Shown one piece after another: positions 24,325 through 51,831 of a stretch of DNA of 64,000 nt. The DNA is from Oscillospiraceae bacterium. Its GTDB lineage: Bacteria > Bacillota > Clostridia > Oscillospirales > Oscillospiraceae. A program made the translations under genes and the position numbers. Each line of letters opens with the position of its first letter. The first letter of the stretch is position 1. Under the pieces are notes generated by a model. That model was not told the DNA's origin. It ran no database searches and saw only the letters and a program-made list of their open reading frames with translations. The stretch covers positions 16,698-80,697 of the forward strand of contig CACYYN010000033.1 in NCBI GenBank assembly GCA_902778665.1, given 5' to 3'.

Positions 24325-25290
24325 ATGGAACTGTATGCAACGATTCCCTCAGTAGACAAGCCGGTCTCCAGACTATTCTTCGGGACCGCCTCAAAGCCCT
24401 TTCTCGCAGGGGAAAACTGCAACCGCCTGCTGGATGAAATGTTTGACCTGGGCATTCAGACCATCGACAGTGCACGCAATTATCAGTCTTCCGAAATATC
24501 CATCGGCAGATGGTTTCAGGAGAGCGGAAAACGGGAGCAGGTGGTCCTTCTGACCAAGGGCGGGCATCCCGATTTGCTGGGCAGAAGACGCATCAATGAA
24601 AAGGAAATCCGGAAGGACATTGAGTGCAGCCTGCGCAATCTTCACTCGGACTATATTGATATCTATCTGCTGCACCGGGATGACCCGCGAAAGCCGGCAG
24701 GAGAGATTGTGGAGATTTTCAATGCTCTCTACCGGGAGGGGAAGATCCGGGCATTCGGCGGGTCCAACTGGACCCACACCCGCATCGAAGAGGCAAACCG
24801 GTATGCACAGGAGCACGGCCTTATCCCGCTGACCGTCTCCAGCCCCAACTTCAGTCTGGCAGAGCAGGTGAGGGACCCGTGGGGCGGAGGTTGCGTCACC
24901 CTAACCGGGAAGGACAACGAACAGGCCCGTGCCTGGTACCAAGAGAACGGCATGCCCGTGATCGCCTATTCCAGCCTGGGGCGCGGGCTTTTATCGGGGA
25001 AGATCACATCCGGGAACATGGCCGACTACGCGAAACTCATGGATGAACCCGCCCGGAAGGGATACGCCTGCGAAGAAAACTTTGAGCGTCTCAGAAGATG
25101 TGAGACGCTCGCGAAAGAAAAAGGAATTACGGTTTCTCAGGTTGCACTCGCCTGGTTTTTCCGCCAGCCCATGAATCTGTTTGCCATTGTCAGCACCTCC
25201 AGCAGAGAGCGGATGCAGGCGAACATGGAGGCTCTCAACATTATTCTGACGGCGGAAGAATGCTCTTATCTGAACCTGCAGCAGACCTGA
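24325..25290 (+). CDS. Aldo/keto reductase
   Basis: A 321-residue NADPH-dependent oxidoreductase with a TIM barrel: TIDSARNYQSSEISIG near residue 47 (catalytic Asp and Tyr), LLTKGGHP near 75 (Lys), LLHRDDPRKPAGE near 116 (His), and a C-terminal NADPH-binding IVSTSSRERMQANM near 287. AAAGGAGAACAAA precedes ATG. It has no iron-sulfur extension, unlike the reductase at 17876. The last 50 bases overlap tail to tail with recD2. Confidence 0.9.
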   Translation: MELYATIPSVDKPVSRLFFGTASKPFLAGENCNRLLDEMFDLGIQTIDSARNYQSSEISIGRWFQESGKREQVVLLTKGGHPDLLGRRRINEKEIRKDIECSLRNLHSDYIDIYLLHRDDPRKPAGEIVEIFNALYREGKIRAFGGSNWTHTRIEEANRYAQEHGLIPLTVSSPNFSLAEQVRDPWGGGCVTLTGKDNEQARAWYQENGMPVIAYSSLGRGLLSGKITSGNMADYAKLMDEPARKGYACEENFERLRRCETLAKEKGITVSQVALAWFFRQPMNLFAIVSTSSRERMQANMEALNIILTAEECSYLNLQQT

Positions 25291-27421
25291 GACGCTCAGC
25301 AAGCATGGTGTTTCGCTTCAGGACCGTCATATTCCGCACCGCGATTCCCAGGGCTTTTTTCGTACCCACAATCACCATCACCTTTTTGGCTCTGGTACAG
25401 CCGGTATAGATCAGGTTGCGCTGCAGCATCACAAAGTGGCTCATAAGCACGGGCATCACCACAATCGGGTATTCCGAGCCCTGGGCCTTGTGCACGGTTG
25501 TGGCATAGGCCAGAACCACCTCATCCAGCTCCGTGACATCATAGGTCACCGCTCTGCCGTCATAGACAATGGTCAGTTCCCGGTCCTCCAGATCCACAGC
25601 GCTGACAATGCCGATGTCTCCGTTGAAAACTTCCTTCTCATAGTTGTTGCGGATCTGCATCACCTTATCATTGGCTTTGAACAGAGTGCCTCCCCGCCTC
25701 AACCCTTCACCGCCGGGATTAACTGCCTCCTGCAGGATCTGATTCAGATTTGCGGCACCCACAGTGCCCCTCTGCATGGGGGTGAGCACCTGGACAGCGT
25801 TTGGCGGGACATGATAGTGCTTCGGAAGCCTATTTTTCACCAGCTCCACGATTTCTCCGGCAGCGGCATCCGGATCCTCCTGCTCAATAAAGAAGAAGTC
25901 ACTTCCCCGCCCGTTGCTGAGATCAGGCATCTGGCCCCGGTTGATCCGGTGGGCATTTGTAATGATTCTGCTGGATTGGGCCTGACGGAAAATTCTCGTC
26001 AGGCGGACAACCGGGAACTGAGCCGAGTCGATCATGTCTCGCAGCACGTTGCCCGCCCCCACGGAGGGAAGCTGGTCAATGTCTCCCACGAAAACAAGGC
26101 TCATGGAGTCCGGCACGGCCTTCAGCAGGCTGAACATCAACATAAGGTCGATCATGGAGCATTCATCCACAATGAGGACATCGCCTTCCAGCGATGTCTT
26201 TTCATTTTTCTGATAGCCCTCGGGCGGTTTGAACTCCAGCAGGCGGTGGATGGTTTTTGCCTCCATACCGGTGGCCTCCGAAAGCCGCTTTGCAGCCCTG
26301 CCCGTGGGTGCAGCCAGCAGGACGGATGCCCCTGCCTCCCGAAGGGCGGAGATTATCCCGAGGGTGGTGGTGGTTTTTCCCGTTCCGGGGCCTCCCGTCA
26401 GAATCAGGATTTTGCTTTTCACGGCGGTTGAGATCGCCTTAAGCTGAATCTCGTCATAGTCCATGCCGGTTTTTACCCGGATGCGCTCCTCCAGGCCTTG
26501 GGGAGAGATGGTGATTTTTCTCTCTCCGCCGTAAATCTCCCAAAGCCGTTTCGCCACGCCGATCTCGGCATAATAGAAGGGCGGAAGATAGACTGCGGTC
26601 TCTCCGGAGGAAGGAACAGGCTCGTGCTTTACGTCCTCCTCCTGAAGCATCCGGTCAAGGGCCTGAGAGAGGAGGGAAACGTCCACATCCAGAAGCTCGC
26701 TTCCCGTTTCCAGCAGCATCTTTCGGGTCGCGTAGCAGTGCCCTTCCTCCGAGAGTTTATTGAGTGTATACAGCAGGCCGCTGCGAAGCCGAACATATTT
26801 GTTGTGGTCAAAACCCATTTTTTCGGCAATGGTGTCAGCTGTGCGAAACCCGATGCCCCAGATGTCATCCGCAAGGCGATAGGGGTTTTCCTGCACGACC
26901 CTGACACTGTCTTCCCCATAGGTTTTGTAGATCTTTGTGGCATGGGACGTGGAGACATCGTGAGACTGGAGAAACAGCATGATGTTTTTGATCTCCTTCT
27001 GTTCCTGCCAGCTGGCTTTGATCCGCTCCACCCGGACGGAGCCGATGCCGGGAACCTTCAGCAGCTCATCCGGCCTCTCCTCAATCACATCCAGGGTTTC
27101 CGTCCCGAAGGCGTTGACGATACGCCCGGCGAATTTCGGGCCGATGCCCTTCACCAGGCCGGACCCGAGATACTTTTCGATCCCGGCCACTGTGGCGGGC
27201 AGCGTTTCCTCACAGGACTCGGCGGAAAACTGCCGCCCGTATTTCGGATCCATTTTCCAGTTGCCCGTCACAAGGATCACCGCTCCCACATGGGTTTCCG
27301 GCATGGTCCCCACCACGGTGATCAGGTCGTTATACCCCTTTGCCCTGCATTTGATGACAGAATAACCATTCTGCTCATTCTGGTAGGTAATTCTCTCCAC
27401 GACACAGCGTAAACGTTCCAT
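25241..27421 (-). CDS. recD2: SF1B DNA helicase RecD2 (copy 1)
   Basis: A 726-residue 5'-3' helicase of the RecD2 (RecD/TraA) family, the version found in bacteria without RecBCD. Domains: N-terminal OB fold (residues 1-80), helix-hairpin-helix tract (GSGLVKGIGPKFAGRI near 85 and VPGIGSVRVERI near 122), then the motor with Walker A GGPGTGKTTTT near 340, DECSMIDL near 417, GDIDQLPSVGAGNVL near 448 and the C-terminal motif VHKAQGSEYP near 647. Length is normal. Own promoter at 27450-27479 and AAGGGGTGA before ATG. A second, divergent copy lies at 34083-36338. Confidence 0.93.
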   Translation of the reverse strand: MERLRCVVERITYQNEQNGYSVIKCRAKGYNDLITVVGTMPETHVGAVILVTGNWKMDPKYGRQFSAESCEETLPATVAGIEKYLGSGLVKGIGPKFAGRIVNAFGTETLDVIEERPDELLKVPGIGSVRVERIKASWQEQKEIKNIMLFLQSHDVSTSHATKIYKTYGEDSVRVVQENPYRLADDIWGIGFRTADTIAEKMGFDHNKYVRLRSGLLYTLNKLSEEGHCYATRKMLLETGSELLDVDVSLLSQALDRMLQEEDVKHEPVPSSGETAVYLPPFYYAEIGVAKRLWEIYGGERKITISPQGLEERIRVKTGMDYDEIQLKAISTAVKSKILILTGGPGTGKTTTTLGIISALREAGASVLLAAPTGRAAKRLSEATGMEAKTIHRLLEFKPPEGYQKNEKTSLEGDVLIVDECSMIDLMLMFSLLKAVPDSMSLVFVGDIDQLPSVGAGNVLRDMIDSAQFPVVRLTRIFRQAQSSRIITNAHRINRGQMPDLSNGRGSDFFFIEQEDPDAAAGEIVELVKNRLPKHYHVPPNAVQVLTPMQRGTVGAANLNQILQEAVNPGGEGLRRGGTLFKANDKVMQIRNNYEKEVFNGDIGIVSAVDLEDRELTIVYDGRAVTYDVTELDEVVLAYATTVHKAQGSEYPIVVMPVLMSHFVMLQRNLIYTGCTRAKKVMVIVGTKKALGIAVRNMTVLKRNTMLAERLRSAAGSDKSILPPSE

Positions 27422-29795: not shown

Positions 29796-29827
29796 ACCCG
29801 TCAGGCAGCTGAAATTTGGAGGCAGAC

Positions 29828-30406
29828 ATGCTATACATCGTTCGTCACGGCCAGACAGCACAGAATCTGGCACAGGTGCTTCAGGGCAGAAGTGACTATC
29901 CTCTCAACGAGGCAGGACTCAGGCAGGCCCACGAGGCCGCAAGGCTTCTTCGGTCTGAAGGCATTTTCTTTGACCATGTATTTTCAAGCCCTCTCATCCG
30001 GGCAGTTCAGACCGCTGAAATCCTTGCCCCCGGCAGAAGTCCGACATTGGACAACCGGCTGATTGAAATGGATTACGGCCCCTATGAGGGGACCGATCTG
30101 AATCATCTGCCGCAGGAGATTCTCACCTTTTTCAGTGACTTTGTGCATAACCCTGCCCCGGAAGGCATGGAGCAGCTGTCTTCCGTTGTACAGCGGGCAG
30201 GCAGCTTTCTGGACGAGGTCCGGAATCTTCCGGGGAATATTCTGATCTCCACCCATGCCATTGCCATGAAAGGGATTCTGGAATACTGCACGCCGGAGTC
30301 AAAGGGCAGCTACTGGTCAAAATATATCGGGAACTGTGAAGTTTACACAGCAGAAAACCGGGAGGGCAGAATCGGCATTCCGACGCCGTTCACGGCTGCA
30401 GGCTGA
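29828..30406 (+). CDS. Histidine phosphatase family protein
   Basis: A 192-residue phosphoglycerate-mutase-like phosphatase. The phosphohistidine motif VRHGQTAQN sits at residues 4-12, SSPLIRAVQTAE near 52 adds the second Arg, EMDYGPYEG near 79 the acidic residue, and STHAIAMKG near 142 the second His. ATG 29828 with TTGGAGG upstream is preferred to a TTG at 29816. Last gene of the operon; a terminator follows at 30435. Confidence 0.92.
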   Translation: MLYIVRHGQTAQNLAQVLQGRSDYPLNEAGLRQAHEAARLLRSEGIFFDHVFSSPLIRAVQTAEILAPGRSPTLDNRLIEMDYGPYEGTDLNHLPQEILTFFSDFVHNPAPEGMEQLSSVVQRAGSFLDEVRNLPGNILISTHAIAMKGILEYCTPESKGSYWSKYIGNCEVYTAENREGRIGIPTPFTAAG

Positions 30407-30481: not shown

Positions 30482-30558
30482 CACTTTTTGCACAATCGGA
30501 GGAAGATTTTTCCGGTTTATTTTCAGCAAATATTGCCCATTTTGTACAGATCCGTCAA

Positions 30559-30587
30559 TAGACAAACGTTGTTTTTTCTGATATATT
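30559..30587 (+). promoter_or_regulatory. Promoter of the candidate structured RNA
   Basis: TAGACA (30559-30564), 17-base spacer, TATATT (30582-30587). No long coding gene follows on this strand before the terminator at 30910-30964. Confidence 0.65.
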
Positions 30588-30886
30588 ACACGCACTCAAA
30601 CGAATCTCCTTTTTTATATAGCCGCAAATCATTCTGCATAAGAAGCTTCATGATTTAGGGATAACCCGCTTTGGGATAATGGAAATAAGAGTAAATACTG
30701 GTAAGCGGAATCTGCAGAATGAAGCGGCAATTTCAACAGAACCCGCCGTATCGGATGCCGGAGCATTTAATTCATAACCCGCTAATGAAAGGCAAGCGTG
30801 TAAAAGGGTAAAGGCATCGCAGCAAAGAACCATTACGGCAATTCATGCGACACGAATAAAATTGAAGAAAGAAGAGGTAACCAGGA

Positions 30887-30916
30887 TGTTAGATACAAAA
30901 ACAGAACGGAAATAAC
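30887..30916 (+). CDS. Nine-residue mini-ORF at the end of the RNA
   Basis: ATG 30887 to TAA 30916 encodes MLDTKTERK, with AAGAAGAGGTAACCAGG just upstream as a ribosome binding site. The stop codon lies inside the ascending arm of the terminator hairpin. It may be a true leader peptide or the first codons of a deleted gene. Confidence 0.3.
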
Positions 30917-30964
30917 CCTTGACTCCAGTTTTCGAAGGCGAAGTCAAGGGTTATTTCTTTTTTG
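30910..30964 (+). terminator. Strong terminator of the structured RNA
   Basis: AAATAACCCTTGACT (30910-30924) pairs perfectly with AGTCAAGGGTTATTT (30942-30956), followed by CTTTTTTT. Confidence 0.9.
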
Positions 30965-31049
30965 TCCGTTATATTTTCATGATTACCTGCCTCATCTGAA
31001 TAGGAAATGAGGCAGGTTTTTTACGGGATTTTCAGGCCGGGACCCAACG

Positions 31050-31346
31050 TCATTCTTCCCCGTCATCCAGCCCGTACCACAAAAGCATGTTGTAGGCCGC
31101 ATTGGATTCCTGGGCTTCTTTTTTCTCCCGCCAGGTGTCGATTTCAGAGCGGATGGCAAGTGCTTCATCCACAATCATTTCCACGCTCTGCACTCCGGAA
31201 TACTGCAGGTACATCGTCATGCGTTCGATGGCACCGGGGCTCCCGAGAATCTTCGCGATTTTCTGCCCCAGCTCTGCCGGGAACCCGAGATGAACAATCT
31301 CCCTCACGAGCCCGTCTCTGGCATAGAGCCATTCTTCGTTTGTCAT
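31050..31346 (-). CDS. Unknown 98-residue protein
   Basis: Soluble helical protein (MTNEEWLYARDGLVREIVH, then AIERMTMYLQYSG and a charged helix EIDTWREKKEAQE). Its ATG overlaps the stop of the upstream PHP-domain gene (ATGA), so it is translated from the same message. It looks like a conserved clostridial accessory protein; no motif identifies a function. Confidence 0.7.
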   Translation of the reverse strand: MTNEEWLYARDGLVREIVHLGFPAELGQKIAKILGSPGAIERMTMYLQYSGVQSVEMIVDEALAIRSEIDTWREKKEAQESNAAYNMLLWYGLDDGEE

Positions 31347-34082: not shown

Positions 34083-36338
34083 TTATGGTCTGATATTTCC
34101 TTCCGATCCGCCTGCGGCAGCAAGAATACGCGTCTTCAGGAAGGTGAAGCGGGGATCTCTTCGCTGATTGTCAATCATGCGAAAAGCCACATTCTCATCC
34201 CCAACCAGAATCAGCAGCTCCTTTGCTCTCGTAATGCCGGTGTAGAGAACGCTTCTCGTCATAAGCATACGGGAGGAGGCACTCAGGGCGAAAACAACCG
34301 CTCTGAATTCACAGCCCTGGGCCTTATGCACCGTCACCGCCCAGGCATGATCCAGCTCGTTGAGATTGGTGAAGCTGTATAATGCCAGCTTTCCGTCAAA
34401 ATCAATTTCCAGAGATTCATTCACGGCATCCAGCTTGCGGATATACCCGATATCCCCGTTGTAGATGCCGGTTCCGGAGGTTTTGCCGTCAACGGTCTGC
34501 CAGATGATGTCATAGTTGTTTCGGACCTGCATCACCCGGTCTCCCACGCGGAAAACCGTATCTCCGTAGAGCTTCTCGGCCTTATCCTGACGGGCAGGGT
34601 TGAGTGCCTGCTGCAGGCTTCTGTTCAGGTTGATGGTGCCCAGCTCTCCCTTGCGTGTAGGAGAGAGCACCTGAATATCCTCGGGCGGAATGTGCATGCG
34701 GTTCGGCAGTCTCACTGCACACAACTCGGTGATCGTCTCCACGGAGGAAGCGGCCTCCAGCCGTTTCAGACGGAAGAAATCCGCCGTGTTCGCGGAGAAA
34801 TCCGGATGGGTGCCCTCGTTGATCAGATGCGCATTGCGTACGATCAGACTTTCGCCGGACTGCCGGAAAATCTCGGTAAAGCGGACCGTGGGAAAGGTCT
34901 TACTTTCTATTATGCTGCGGAACACATTGCCCGGCCCAACCGGCGGGAGCTGATCAATATCGCCCACCATGATGAGCCTTGCATTTTCCGGCATGGCACG
35001 CAGAAGTGCCGCGAGCAGGAGCAGATCCACCATGGAGCTCTCATCCAGCACAACCGCATTGCAGTCAAGAGGGTCTCTCTCATTTTTGGAGAACAGCACC
35101 TTTTCGCCGGTGTCGTCATATTTTGCCCCCAGCAGCCGGTGGACGGTGGAGGCCTCTCTGCCGGACAGCTCACTCAAACGTTTTGCCGCCCGCCCTGTGG
35201 GCGCTGTGAGAAAAGCCTTCACGCCCATGGCATCAAAGAGCTCCAGAATGGCACGAATACAGCTGGTTTTGCCGGTTCCCGGCCCGCCCGTGATAATCAG
35301 CAGGCGGTTGGAAAGAGCCAGCTCCAAGGCCTCTTTCTGGGCAGAAGCATAGGCAATGCCCTCACTCTGCTCGATTTTCCGAATCAGTGCGGTGACGTCC
35401 GTGCTGCCGGAAACAGGCTGCCTGCTCATGCTCACGAGGCGGGAGGCCACATACGTCTCTGCTTCGTAGAGCTCCGGCAGGTAGCAGATGTTCCTACCCC
35501 GCATGTTTTCCCGGATGATCTGGCCGCTTTCCACGAGATCATCCATCCCGTGCATGGCAGCCTCTTCCTCCACTTCGATCAGCCTGCAGGATGCCTGCAG
35601 CAGATCAGGCTCCGGAATAAAGCAGTGCCCGTTGTTGAGATTATGGACCAGTTCAAACCGGATGGCCGCCCGGACTCGCTCCAGACTGTCGGTTGCAAAT
35701 CCCAGCTGCAACGCCATGGTATCCGCTTCCGAGAAGGTGCCGCCGATGTGGTTTGAGGCGATAATATACGGATCGGTATGGAGGGTTTCCAGCGCGTGCT
35801 CGGCATAAAACCGGTAAAGCCGGACCGCAATAATGGGGCGAACACCGTAGGAACAGACAAAATCGATCAGATGCCGCATGCCTGCCTGCTGTCTGTAGAA
35901 TTCGGAAAACTCCTTTGCCCGGGAAAGGCTGATGCCTCTGATTTCCGCCAGCTTTTCCGGATGGTTCTCCAGAATATCCAGTGATCTGCCTTCAAAGGTG
36001 TTGACGATCAGAGATGCTGTTGCGGCTCCGATCCCCTTTACGGCTCCGCCGGCCAGATAGGCATAAATCTCATCCGTGGTGGTGGGCAGCATCCGAATGG
36101 CATACCCCGCCTTGAACTGCTTCCCGTAGGTGGCATGGGTCACCCAGGTTCCGGTGGCAATGATGCTTTCACCGGGGGCCATATAGGGAAAGCATCCCAC
36201 AACGGTCTGCTGCTGATCGTCGGAATCTCTGAGGCGGAGCACCGTATAGCCGTTTTCCACATTGCTGTAAAGCACGGCCGTGACAATTCCGCTCAGTTCT
36301 TCCTGAAGTTCAACATCCTGATCCATAAAGTCTTCCAT
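34083..36338 (-). CDS. SF1B DNA helicase, RecD2-like (copy 2)
   Basis: A 751-residue paralogue of the helicase at 25241. N-terminal OB fold (SGIVTAVLYSNVENGYTVLRL), helix-hairpin-helix segment (GGAVKGIGAATASLIV near 95), then Walker A GGPGTGKTSCIR near 349, DESSMVDL near 423 (DE-S instead of DE-C), GDIDQLPPVGPGNVF near 455, and VHKAQGCEFR near 667. All helicase motifs are intact. ATG 36338 is used here; ATG 36326, with AGGATGGAAG upstream, is also possible. It starts 22 bases after uvrA ends, so it belongs to the HD-uvrA operon and probably acts in repair. Confidence 0.9.
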   Translation of the reverse strand: MEDFMDQDVELQEELSGIVTAVLYSNVENGYTVLRLRDSDDQQQTVVGCFPYMAPGESIIATGTWVTHATYGKQFKAGYAIRMLPTTTDEIYAYLAGGAVKGIGAATASLIVNTFEGRSLDILENHPEKLAEIRGISLSRAKEFSEFYRQQAGMRHLIDFVCSYGVRPIIAVRLYRFYAEHALETLHTDPYIIASNHIGGTFSEADTMALQLGFATDSLERVRAAIRFELVHNLNNGHCFIPEPDLLQASCRLIEVEEEAAMHGMDDLVESGQIIRENMRGRNICYLPELYEAETYVASRLVSMSRQPVSGSTDVTALIRKIEQSEGIAYASAQKEALELALSNRLLIITGGPGTGKTSCIRAILELFDAMGVKAFLTAPTGRAAKRLSELSGREASTVHRLLGAKYDDTGEKVLFSKNERDPLDCNAVVLDESSMVDLLLLAALLRAMPENARLIMVGDIDQLPPVGPGNVFRSIIESKTFPTVRFTEIFRQSGESLIVRNAHLINEGTHPDFSANTADFFRLKRLEAASSVETITELCAVRLPNRMHIPPEDIQVLSPTRKGELGTINLNRSLQQALNPARQDKAEKLYGDTVFRVGDRVMQVRNNYDIIWQTVDGKTSGTGIYNGDIGYIRKLDAVNESLEIDFDGKLALYSFTNLNELDHAWAVTVHKAQGCEFRAVVFALSASSRMLMTRSVLYTGITRAKELLILVGDENVAFRMIDNQRRDPRFTFLKTRILAAAGGSEGNIRP

Positions 36339-51758: not shown

Positions 51759-51831
51759 AGCTGGATGCGAGATTCGAACTCGCGACCTCATGATTACGAA
51801 TCAGGCGCTCTACCGGCTGAGCTAATCCAGC
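51759..51831 (-). tRNA. tRNA-Thr (anticodon CGU)
   Basis: Read on the minus strand the acceptor GCTGGAT pairs with ATCCAGC, the D arm is GCTC/GAGC, and the T arm GCGAG/CTCGC has loop TTCGAAT. The anticodon loop TTCGTAA gives anticodon CGT, reading ACG codons. The anticodon stem CCTGA/TCATG has one mismatch (C28 against U42). The CCA end is not encoded. A promoter lies at 51861-51889 and a terminator follows. Confidence 0.93.

Follow-up and report, generated by a model that had tools for sequence, protein, structure and literature searches.

The 64,000-nucleotide stretch of DNA analysed here (the window) covers contig positions 16698-80697 of an Oscillospiraceae bacterium assembly, the source genome, which measures 2.73 Mb and is 84% complete. 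Between a histidine-phosphatase-superfamily gene and a convergent gene lies an RNA gene (Table 1), which is one of six source-genome copies of a seemingly undescribed RNA gene family, present in part of the class Clostridia. A first-pass annotation had placed a promoter here, and that promoter is as claimed, its spacing and one upstream motif matching the family consensus; the claim of some 370 bases devoid of a long frame is equally sound, since no ATG, GTG or TTG frame above 62 amino acids lies inside the stretch (the list of frames began at 60). The same holds for a nine-codon frame with a ribosome binding site that ends inside the terminator, and for the perfect terminator stem, which was put at 15 bp and extends over 16 bp (30909-30924 with 30942-30957, followed by T6). 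An independently promoted RNA gene ending at this terminator, its transcript predicted, is supported by the promoter features and by a 3' module conserved in many dispersed copies. The RNA gene at 30594-30964 is real, on grounds other than those first given.

Table 1. Features of the RNA gene and its flanks, in positions of the window.
Feature	Position	Strand	Remark
Histidine-phosphatase-superfamily gene	29816..30406		upstream neighbour, PF00300
Operator-like TTTTGTACAG	30540..30549	+	19 bases before -35, the family's fixed place
Promoter TAGACA-N17-TATATT	30559..30587	+	10/12 matches, TG before -10
Predicted transcript	30594..30964	+	start inferred from -10, end from T tract
UCUCCUUUUUU, possible partner of micro-ORF ribosome site	30605..30615	+	paired in MFE fold
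First drawn fold (GCCGC/GCGGC, TCATTCTGCA/TGCAGAATGA)	30621..30728	+	complementarity; stability not above chance
Second drawn fold (GCCGTA/TACGGC, GATGCC/GGCATC), enclosing TTCAT-AACCCGCTA-ATGAA	30745..30839	+	read from sequence
Extended Shine-Dalgarno GAAGAAAGAAGAGGT	30864..30878	+	duplex with an assumed 16S tail, -12.3 kcal/mol
Micro-ORF MLDTKTERK-stop (ATG..TAA)	30886..30915	+	family coding signal
Hairpin HP1 and T6 tail, stop codon TAA in 5' arm	30909..30963	+	covariation across family
Second hairpin terminator (ACCTGCCTCAT / ATGAGGCAGGT, then T6)	30985..31017		by eye
Downstream gene	31050..31346		convergent; no Pfam match

The annotation had taken the transcript for a large structured non-coding RNA built of two mirrored folds. 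Its complementary strands are there (TCATTCTGCA/TGCAGAATGA over 10 bp, together with GCCGC/GCGGC, GCCGTA/TACGGC and GATGCC/GGCATC), and the word ATAACCCGCT does occur twice, but the body fold is not above chance. Relative to shuffles the whole transcript folds at z -2.92; its first 267 bases (30594-30860), the body without the terminator, fold at z +0.29, and 114 of 200 shuffles fold equally well. When the 371 bases were searched against 60 relatives, 29 of the 60 genomes gave a match, all of the genus and the source genome included, and the non-self matches were confined to bases 256-371. Since matches fall only there, and the fold signal disappears without the terminator, the signal is that of the 3' module. 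The mirrored folds and the proposed pairing from repeat to repeat found no support, a verdict that concerns this copy only, for which there is no alignable body orthologue. What stands is an RNA gene that is not simply non-coding, because its best-conserved feature is the terminal mini-ORF.

A known structured RNA (raiA, 6S, ROOL or similar), as the annotation had suggested, would suit a stand-alone clostridial RNA of some hundred nucleotides, but can hardly be entertained: at gathering thresholds, Rfam 15 matched only a tRNA in the window (51759-51831) and only tRNAs in 40 further loci, none of them overlapping an element. Within 30500-31010, the ten Rfam matches up to E 10 all fell on the terminator hairpin and none was raiA, 6S or ROOL, and, as far as Rfam 15 and the scanned loci go, a known class is refuted. 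The window module had no match in phage or plasmid records. A pattern search of IMG/VR returned one sequence that reads as another gene (L120) and one 6194-base contig that breaks off inside a module (L121), and two further patterns found no match. Beyond that one contig, a phage- or plasmid-borne element gained no support. Literature outside supplementary tables yielded no description of the module, which may stand unnamed among the 3161 candidates of PMC8040213, a source available in part.

Members of the family share their 3' end, and the RNA that precedes it differs from copy to copy. From 36 diverse aligned modules, each with ribosome site, micro-ORF and hairpin, we built R1, a covariance model for the 3' module, and searched evenly drawn genomes with Infernal's stricter filters. 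At a limit of 1e-3, and with the source genome counted each time, R1 modules occurred at the genus level in 57 of 61 genomes, in 102 of 400 genomes and 37 of 106 genera of the family, in 48 of 295 genomes and 29 of 149 genera of the order, and in 14 of 291 genomes and 11 of 181 genera of the class; at the phylum level (limit 1e-4) the source genome was the only one of 299. Six copies lie in the source genome, no two in one body cluster, and R1's seventh match there is the window hairpin on the other strand. Tandem groups are known in the family, for example five modules within 3 kb at L158. An exact module pattern gave 89 stretches, and the 80 listed came mostly from metagenome assemblies of rumen and gut that bear the names Oscillospiraceae, Ruminococcaceae or Clostridiales bacterium, names from which the class was taken to be Clostridia.

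The first set comprised 98 modules, of which four were dropped when a T-rich stretch was missing in the scan, and merging identical stretches reduced the element set from 206 to 196: 103 from R1 and 93 from the exact pattern, the first search and the source genome. Part of ATG-YTAGATA is prescribed by the exact pattern, and R1 in turn derives from 36 such modules, so recall is biased towards the same sequence. Control stretches were mostly 400-1300 bases away, often within genes.

The 3' module runs from GAAGAAAGAAGAGGTAACCAGG through ATG TTA GAT ... and a stop codon to the hairpin, and the conserved core of the family is a predicted nine-codon frame. This putative frame evolves as coding sequence does, with Leu specified by six codons, swaps of Asp and Glu, three stop codons and length changes by whole codons. 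Behind the ribosome site an ATG was present in 101 of 103 R1 modules; the other two were read as having a GTG (L208) and a TTG (L206) start. The first choice of start was scored by motif and nearness of a stop, and the count was repeated blind on the 101 modules, with no such reward. Read from the last ATG, 98 of 101 modules reach an in-frame stop at codon 7-13, compared with 7 and 11 modules for the two other frames; taking the first ATG, the corresponding numbers were 93 against 10 and 13. Blind calls from the last ATG gave Leu 84, Ile 6, Val 2, Ala 1 and others 8 at residue 2, Asp 81 and Glu 12 at residue 3, and Lys 88 at residue 5. For 195 of the 196 modules, in a count for which the search had demanded GA in the Asp/Glu codon, Leu by six codons stood in 184, Asp in 182, Glu in 13 and Lys in 189. 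TAA, TGA and TAG are all in use as stop codons, and there are EPK versions of the frame in which the nucleotides differ and the residues are similar. A short ORF under coding selection, which characterizes dual-function small RNAs, was found here.

Conservation of this kind might mean that the micropeptide M-[LIVA]-[DE]-x-K-... is the product, acting as a peptide or, in the ribosome, as a nascent chain, with the RNA as its mRNA and the body as a regulatory leader. The constancy of residues 2, 3 and 5 in most of the 101 modules, the EPK versions and the single GTG and TTG starts all speak for it. Nonetheless we consider it unlikely: the peptide is about nine residues, hydrophilic by eye, with a variable C-terminal half; the usual stop is lost in L043 and L068 of the first set, as it is in L186 (no stop in range) and L234 (stop at codon 16), and the L211 match reads MTKN only; and the bodies covary as RNA. 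Type I toxin-antitoxin systems combine a hydrophobic toxic peptide with an antisense antitoxin; the peptides read here look hydrophilic by eye.

The scan located the hairpin of the module, HP1, in 192 of 196 elements, with a median of 20 pairs. In the 36-row alignment 97.2% of cells pair, compared with 25-47% in slid registers, and 14 of 17 pairs have changed on both sides, a number reached by 0 of 500 shuffles. Of the 186 stop codons that could be placed, 185 lie no earlier than the first base of the arm and 146 at arm bases 4-9. A short ORF that overlaps a predicted intrinsic terminator, one trait of uORF-terminator attenuators, is present here, with both coding-type evolution and covariation. 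At least six T in eight follow HP1 in 38 of 191 elements, a figure that is too low wherever the arm extends into the T's. In 82 of 188 elements, versus 19 of 534 controls, another canonical terminator comes within about 100 bases, so that HP1 may not be the true 3' end. Some 20 bases past HP1 in the window we noticed a further hairpin terminator, the loop of which is too long for the terminator scan; it may serve the convergent gene too.

These features could also be read as a terminator gated by translation, in which ribosomes on the 3' ORF would block HP1 and let transcription continue to the second terminator or into neighbouring genes. The stop codon within the stem and the excess of second terminators are in its favour, and uORF-terminator attenuators are known (PMC8632094). 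It is quite improbable given the neighbourhood: among 93 elements, with genes called by our own caller, the next downstream gene is on the opposite strand in 49 and on the same strand in 36 (none was called in 8), and the largest cluster of neighbour proteins covers 8 elements only, so that no downstream gene is common to more than a few. Attenuation of a downstream gene as a general role was rejected on the same counts. The RNA gene stands alone, and its neighbours are not widely shared.

Ribosome sites in the module are very strong. The duplex with the 16S tail, an assumed tail whose pattern was not found in the incomplete source genome, has a median of -14.4 kcal/mol over 196 elements; this compares with -10.9 at the best start in 377 gene calls, of which 15% match that strength. 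Pairing of UCUCCUUUUUU with the ribosome site gave a mixed picture in the eight copies tested: it beats shuffles in L030 and L026, where 0 and 0.5% of them do as well, is equalled by 6.5-19% of shuffles in L123, L122 and L124, and is no better than shuffles in the window copy, L125 and L004; in one five-sequence set most pairs are invariant.

In many relatives the predicted RNA starts like CAGAAAGGGTGATACCAATGTACAGGTAA, with a ribosome site and a frame of 2-4 codons. Among 151 elements whose promoter call was good, 79 have this 5' mini-ORF, as against 89 of 3020 shuffles; the first set has it in 23 of 70, the family set in 28 of 46 and the order and class set in 28 of 35, and its second codon is TAC in 47 of 79. 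It is absent from all six source-genome copies, the window copy included, and looks ancestral and lost in the source genome. Elements with a score below 14, which include the window copy, do not enter the counts of the 5' mini-ORF and of the divergent promoter described below; four of the six source-genome copies, again including the window copy, fall under the promoter limit of the mini-ORF count. The heuristic -10 finder rewards AGAAAG and places some starts wrongly (L124). By eye, the body of L221 (about 1045-1330) holds three repeated units of a ribosome site and ATG AAA TAA or ATG AGA TAA.

Both frames could be minigenes of a ribosome or tRNA trap, where the hairpin would abort translation, peptidyl-tRNAs drop off, and ribosomes or tRNAs be titrated under the condition that switches the promoter on. 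The ribosome-site duplexes, the near-universal HP1 with its stop codon at arm bases 4-9, the repeated units of L221 and the drop-off of dipeptidyl-tRNA, averaging 10.5% in an Escherichia coli pth(ts) strain (PMC10192219), agree with such a device. We think it fairly unlikely, given that it leaves unexplained the residues of the 3' ORF, the covarying bodies and the occurrence, in one genome, of up to seven copies that differ in body.

Upstream, promoter spacing is 17 nt in 118 of 127 family promoters, with an extended -10, TGcTATAtTATA, and three motifs precede the -35: aatT at -51, gttTT.caCAA at -43 and TTtTGTACAAaat at -19. These motifs keep fixed places in the family, and the region bears TTGTACAA; sibling small RNAs under one regulator would carry a shared operator at such a fixed place. 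The source genome deviates: the consensus promoter pattern has no match in it and its six copies depart from the family consensus; only the window copy carries the -19 motif (TTTTGTACAG, TTTTGTACA), with no clear match to the -43 motif, and the CAATAGACAA form is common to only four of the six, by eye. A 90-base profile of the RNA promoter, trained on 119 promoters and cut at the lower quartile of the training set, gave 111 distinct hits in 1.12 Mb of loci, of which 107 had a module within 750 bases; the remaining four were three duplicate loci of known modules and L230, with its module about 1.1 kb on. The loci were chosen around modules, so the profile's specificity is shown for this sample rather than for whole genomes.

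A second, divergent promoter (at least 10/12 matches) lies upstream in 116 of 147 elements, compared with 18 of 394 controls, and in 114 of the 116 it stands 110-139 bases from the -10 of the RNA. A hairpin of at least 6 bp starts within 22 bases of the divergent -10 in 91 of 114 cases (146 of 342 shuffles, 101 of 274 other places), and a hairpin with a T-rich tail in 68 of 114 (41 of 342 and 18 of 274, respectively). The window copy is without this promoter, which among the six source-genome copies only L125 possesses. Upstream of L158, L101 and L072, for example, the divergent transcript is predicted to be a short RNA that often starts with TGTTGGG and forms an early hairpin.

The body ranges from near nothing (L137, L143, L147, L152 and L162) to about 1.1 kb of repeats (L230), and the near-absent bodies indicate that it is not always the business end of the RNA. 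Bodies are rich in purines (median 0.60; above 0.55 in 112 of 126). In a random subset of 60 middle-length elements the mean stability was z -1.53, with 42% below -2, against -0.22 and 7% in 54 controls. With structures derived from the same alignments as were tested, 13 of 68 pairs had changed on both sides in one orthologous set of nine bodies and 9 of 61 in another of eight, neither being reached by any of 500 shuffles; for the number of pair types, 16 of 500 and 415 of 500 shuffles, respectively, did at least as well as the observed sets. In a third set of five sequences, too alike, 2 of 60 pairs covary. Because covariation was seen in two orthologous sets, and stability on average exceeds that of shuffles, some bodies at least are under constraint. 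A common closing helix shows a weak excess (91 of 131 versus 375 of 655). A hairpin with a CTTA-type loop is present in 56 of 169 long elements, the window copy not being counted, versus 15 of 458 controls; by eye, the second drawn fold of the window copy resembles it.

Two observations on bodies were made by eye. On the reverse strand of L230, at about 46-1330, the body consists of diverged AAAACATCAAAAGRTG..ATGCATGAAATG repeats, and this 1.1 kb is flanked by a 5' mini-ORF (Met-Tyr-stop) and the 3' module. The class-level elements L200, L202, L203, L207 and L209 have the body words ACACGRCGGTG, ATATAGATT, TTCGCCTTTTG and AAAAGGTAGACAA in common, which suggests that class-level relatives have a common body.

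The reading that we tentatively favour, by analogy and from sequence, is that of sibling regulatory RNAs guarded by ribosomes, with a body acting in trans. Each cassette would consist of a promoter with shared features, a purine-rich variable body and the common 3' module, that is, a very strong ribosome site, an ORF of about 7-12 codons and a long hairpin holding the stop codon. One transcription factor would control all siblings, and sibling small RNAs under one factor do exist. The ends of the RNA may be shielded from exonucleases by ribosomes that sit on the 3' ORF and, in copies that have it, on the 5' ORF; a ribosome at the 3' stop codon would open the hairpin, making the RNA's lifetime or 3' end depend on translation capacity; and the variable body would work in trans. 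Since the window copy has neither 5' ORF nor divergent promoter, only the 3' guard could work there. In Bacillus a strong 5' Shine-Dalgarno stabilises a long untranslated RNA (PMC3997798), and a ribosome bound to a mini-ORF can protect a transcript (PMC8708949). The stand-alone setting, the promoter spacing and motifs, the 3' ORF, the 5' mini-ORF of relatives and the covarying bodies also speak for this reading. Against guarding by ribosomes stands the conservation of M-L-D-x-K, residues superfluous for a mere guard, and this keeps the peptide and the trap alive as explanations. Also counting against the favoured reading are the missing 5' mini-ORF of the six source-genome copies, the near-absent bodies, the chance-level fold of the window body, the weak closing helix, the uneven covariation of bodies and the second terminators.

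A broader arrangement, which we regard as possible if rather doubtful, is an RNA-cassette regulon across much of one class, with a conserved control region, divergent promoters, a short hairpin RNA on one side and a body RNA with ribosome-held ends on the other. The hairpin RNA is predicted at about 35-60 nt, often starting UGUUGGG. The exchangeable body, absent to about 1.1 kb long, folded or repetitive and purine-rich, would be displayed between two micro-ORFs, and its lifetime would be a direct readout of translation capacity.

The csRNAs of CiaR and LhrC of Listeria are sibling small RNA families under one regulator, and lambda bar is a minigene. With csRNAs and LhrC our family shares dispersed intergenic copies, operator-like motifs upstream, terminators of their own and diverged bodies; it differs in the conserved 3' micro-ORF of each member, the 5' one of about half, its spread over many families of one class, and a regulator that is putative. 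The uORFC motifs (PMC8632094) likewise combine a promoter, a ribosome site and a short ORF beside an intrinsic terminator, whereas the present elements have no conserved downstream gene, a stop inside the stem and a variable body before the ORF. Like the cryIIIA STAB-SD and the ermC leader (PMC3997798), they carry a strong Shine-Dalgarno at the extreme 5' end of a long, largely untranslated RNA; unlike them, they have an ORF of 2-4 codons there and a second site at the 3' end, and the 5' feature is absent from the window copy. Very short ORFs with strong ribosome sites recall lambda bar and the axe-txe minigene (PMC8708949), but here they sit in a stand-alone RNA family, with TAC as the predominant second codon. 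We rate the anatomy as unlike any known kind, each part (sibling small RNAs, uORF-terminators, minigenes and 5' stabilisers) being known by itself.

An RNA family with up to several copies per genome in many gut and rumen Clostridia families is without an Rfam 15 match; its defining frames are too short for gene finders, and RNA finders may discard them as coding. Should ribosomes guard these RNAs, this would be a new route to stable bacterial RNA, its level coupled to ribosome availability; should the peptide be the product, this would be a family of conserved, very short peptides that extends to the class level. Elsewhere in the window, two genes lying close together on the minus strand (25241-27421 and 34083-36338; 726 and 751 aa, frames by eye) have the look of RecD-type helicases.
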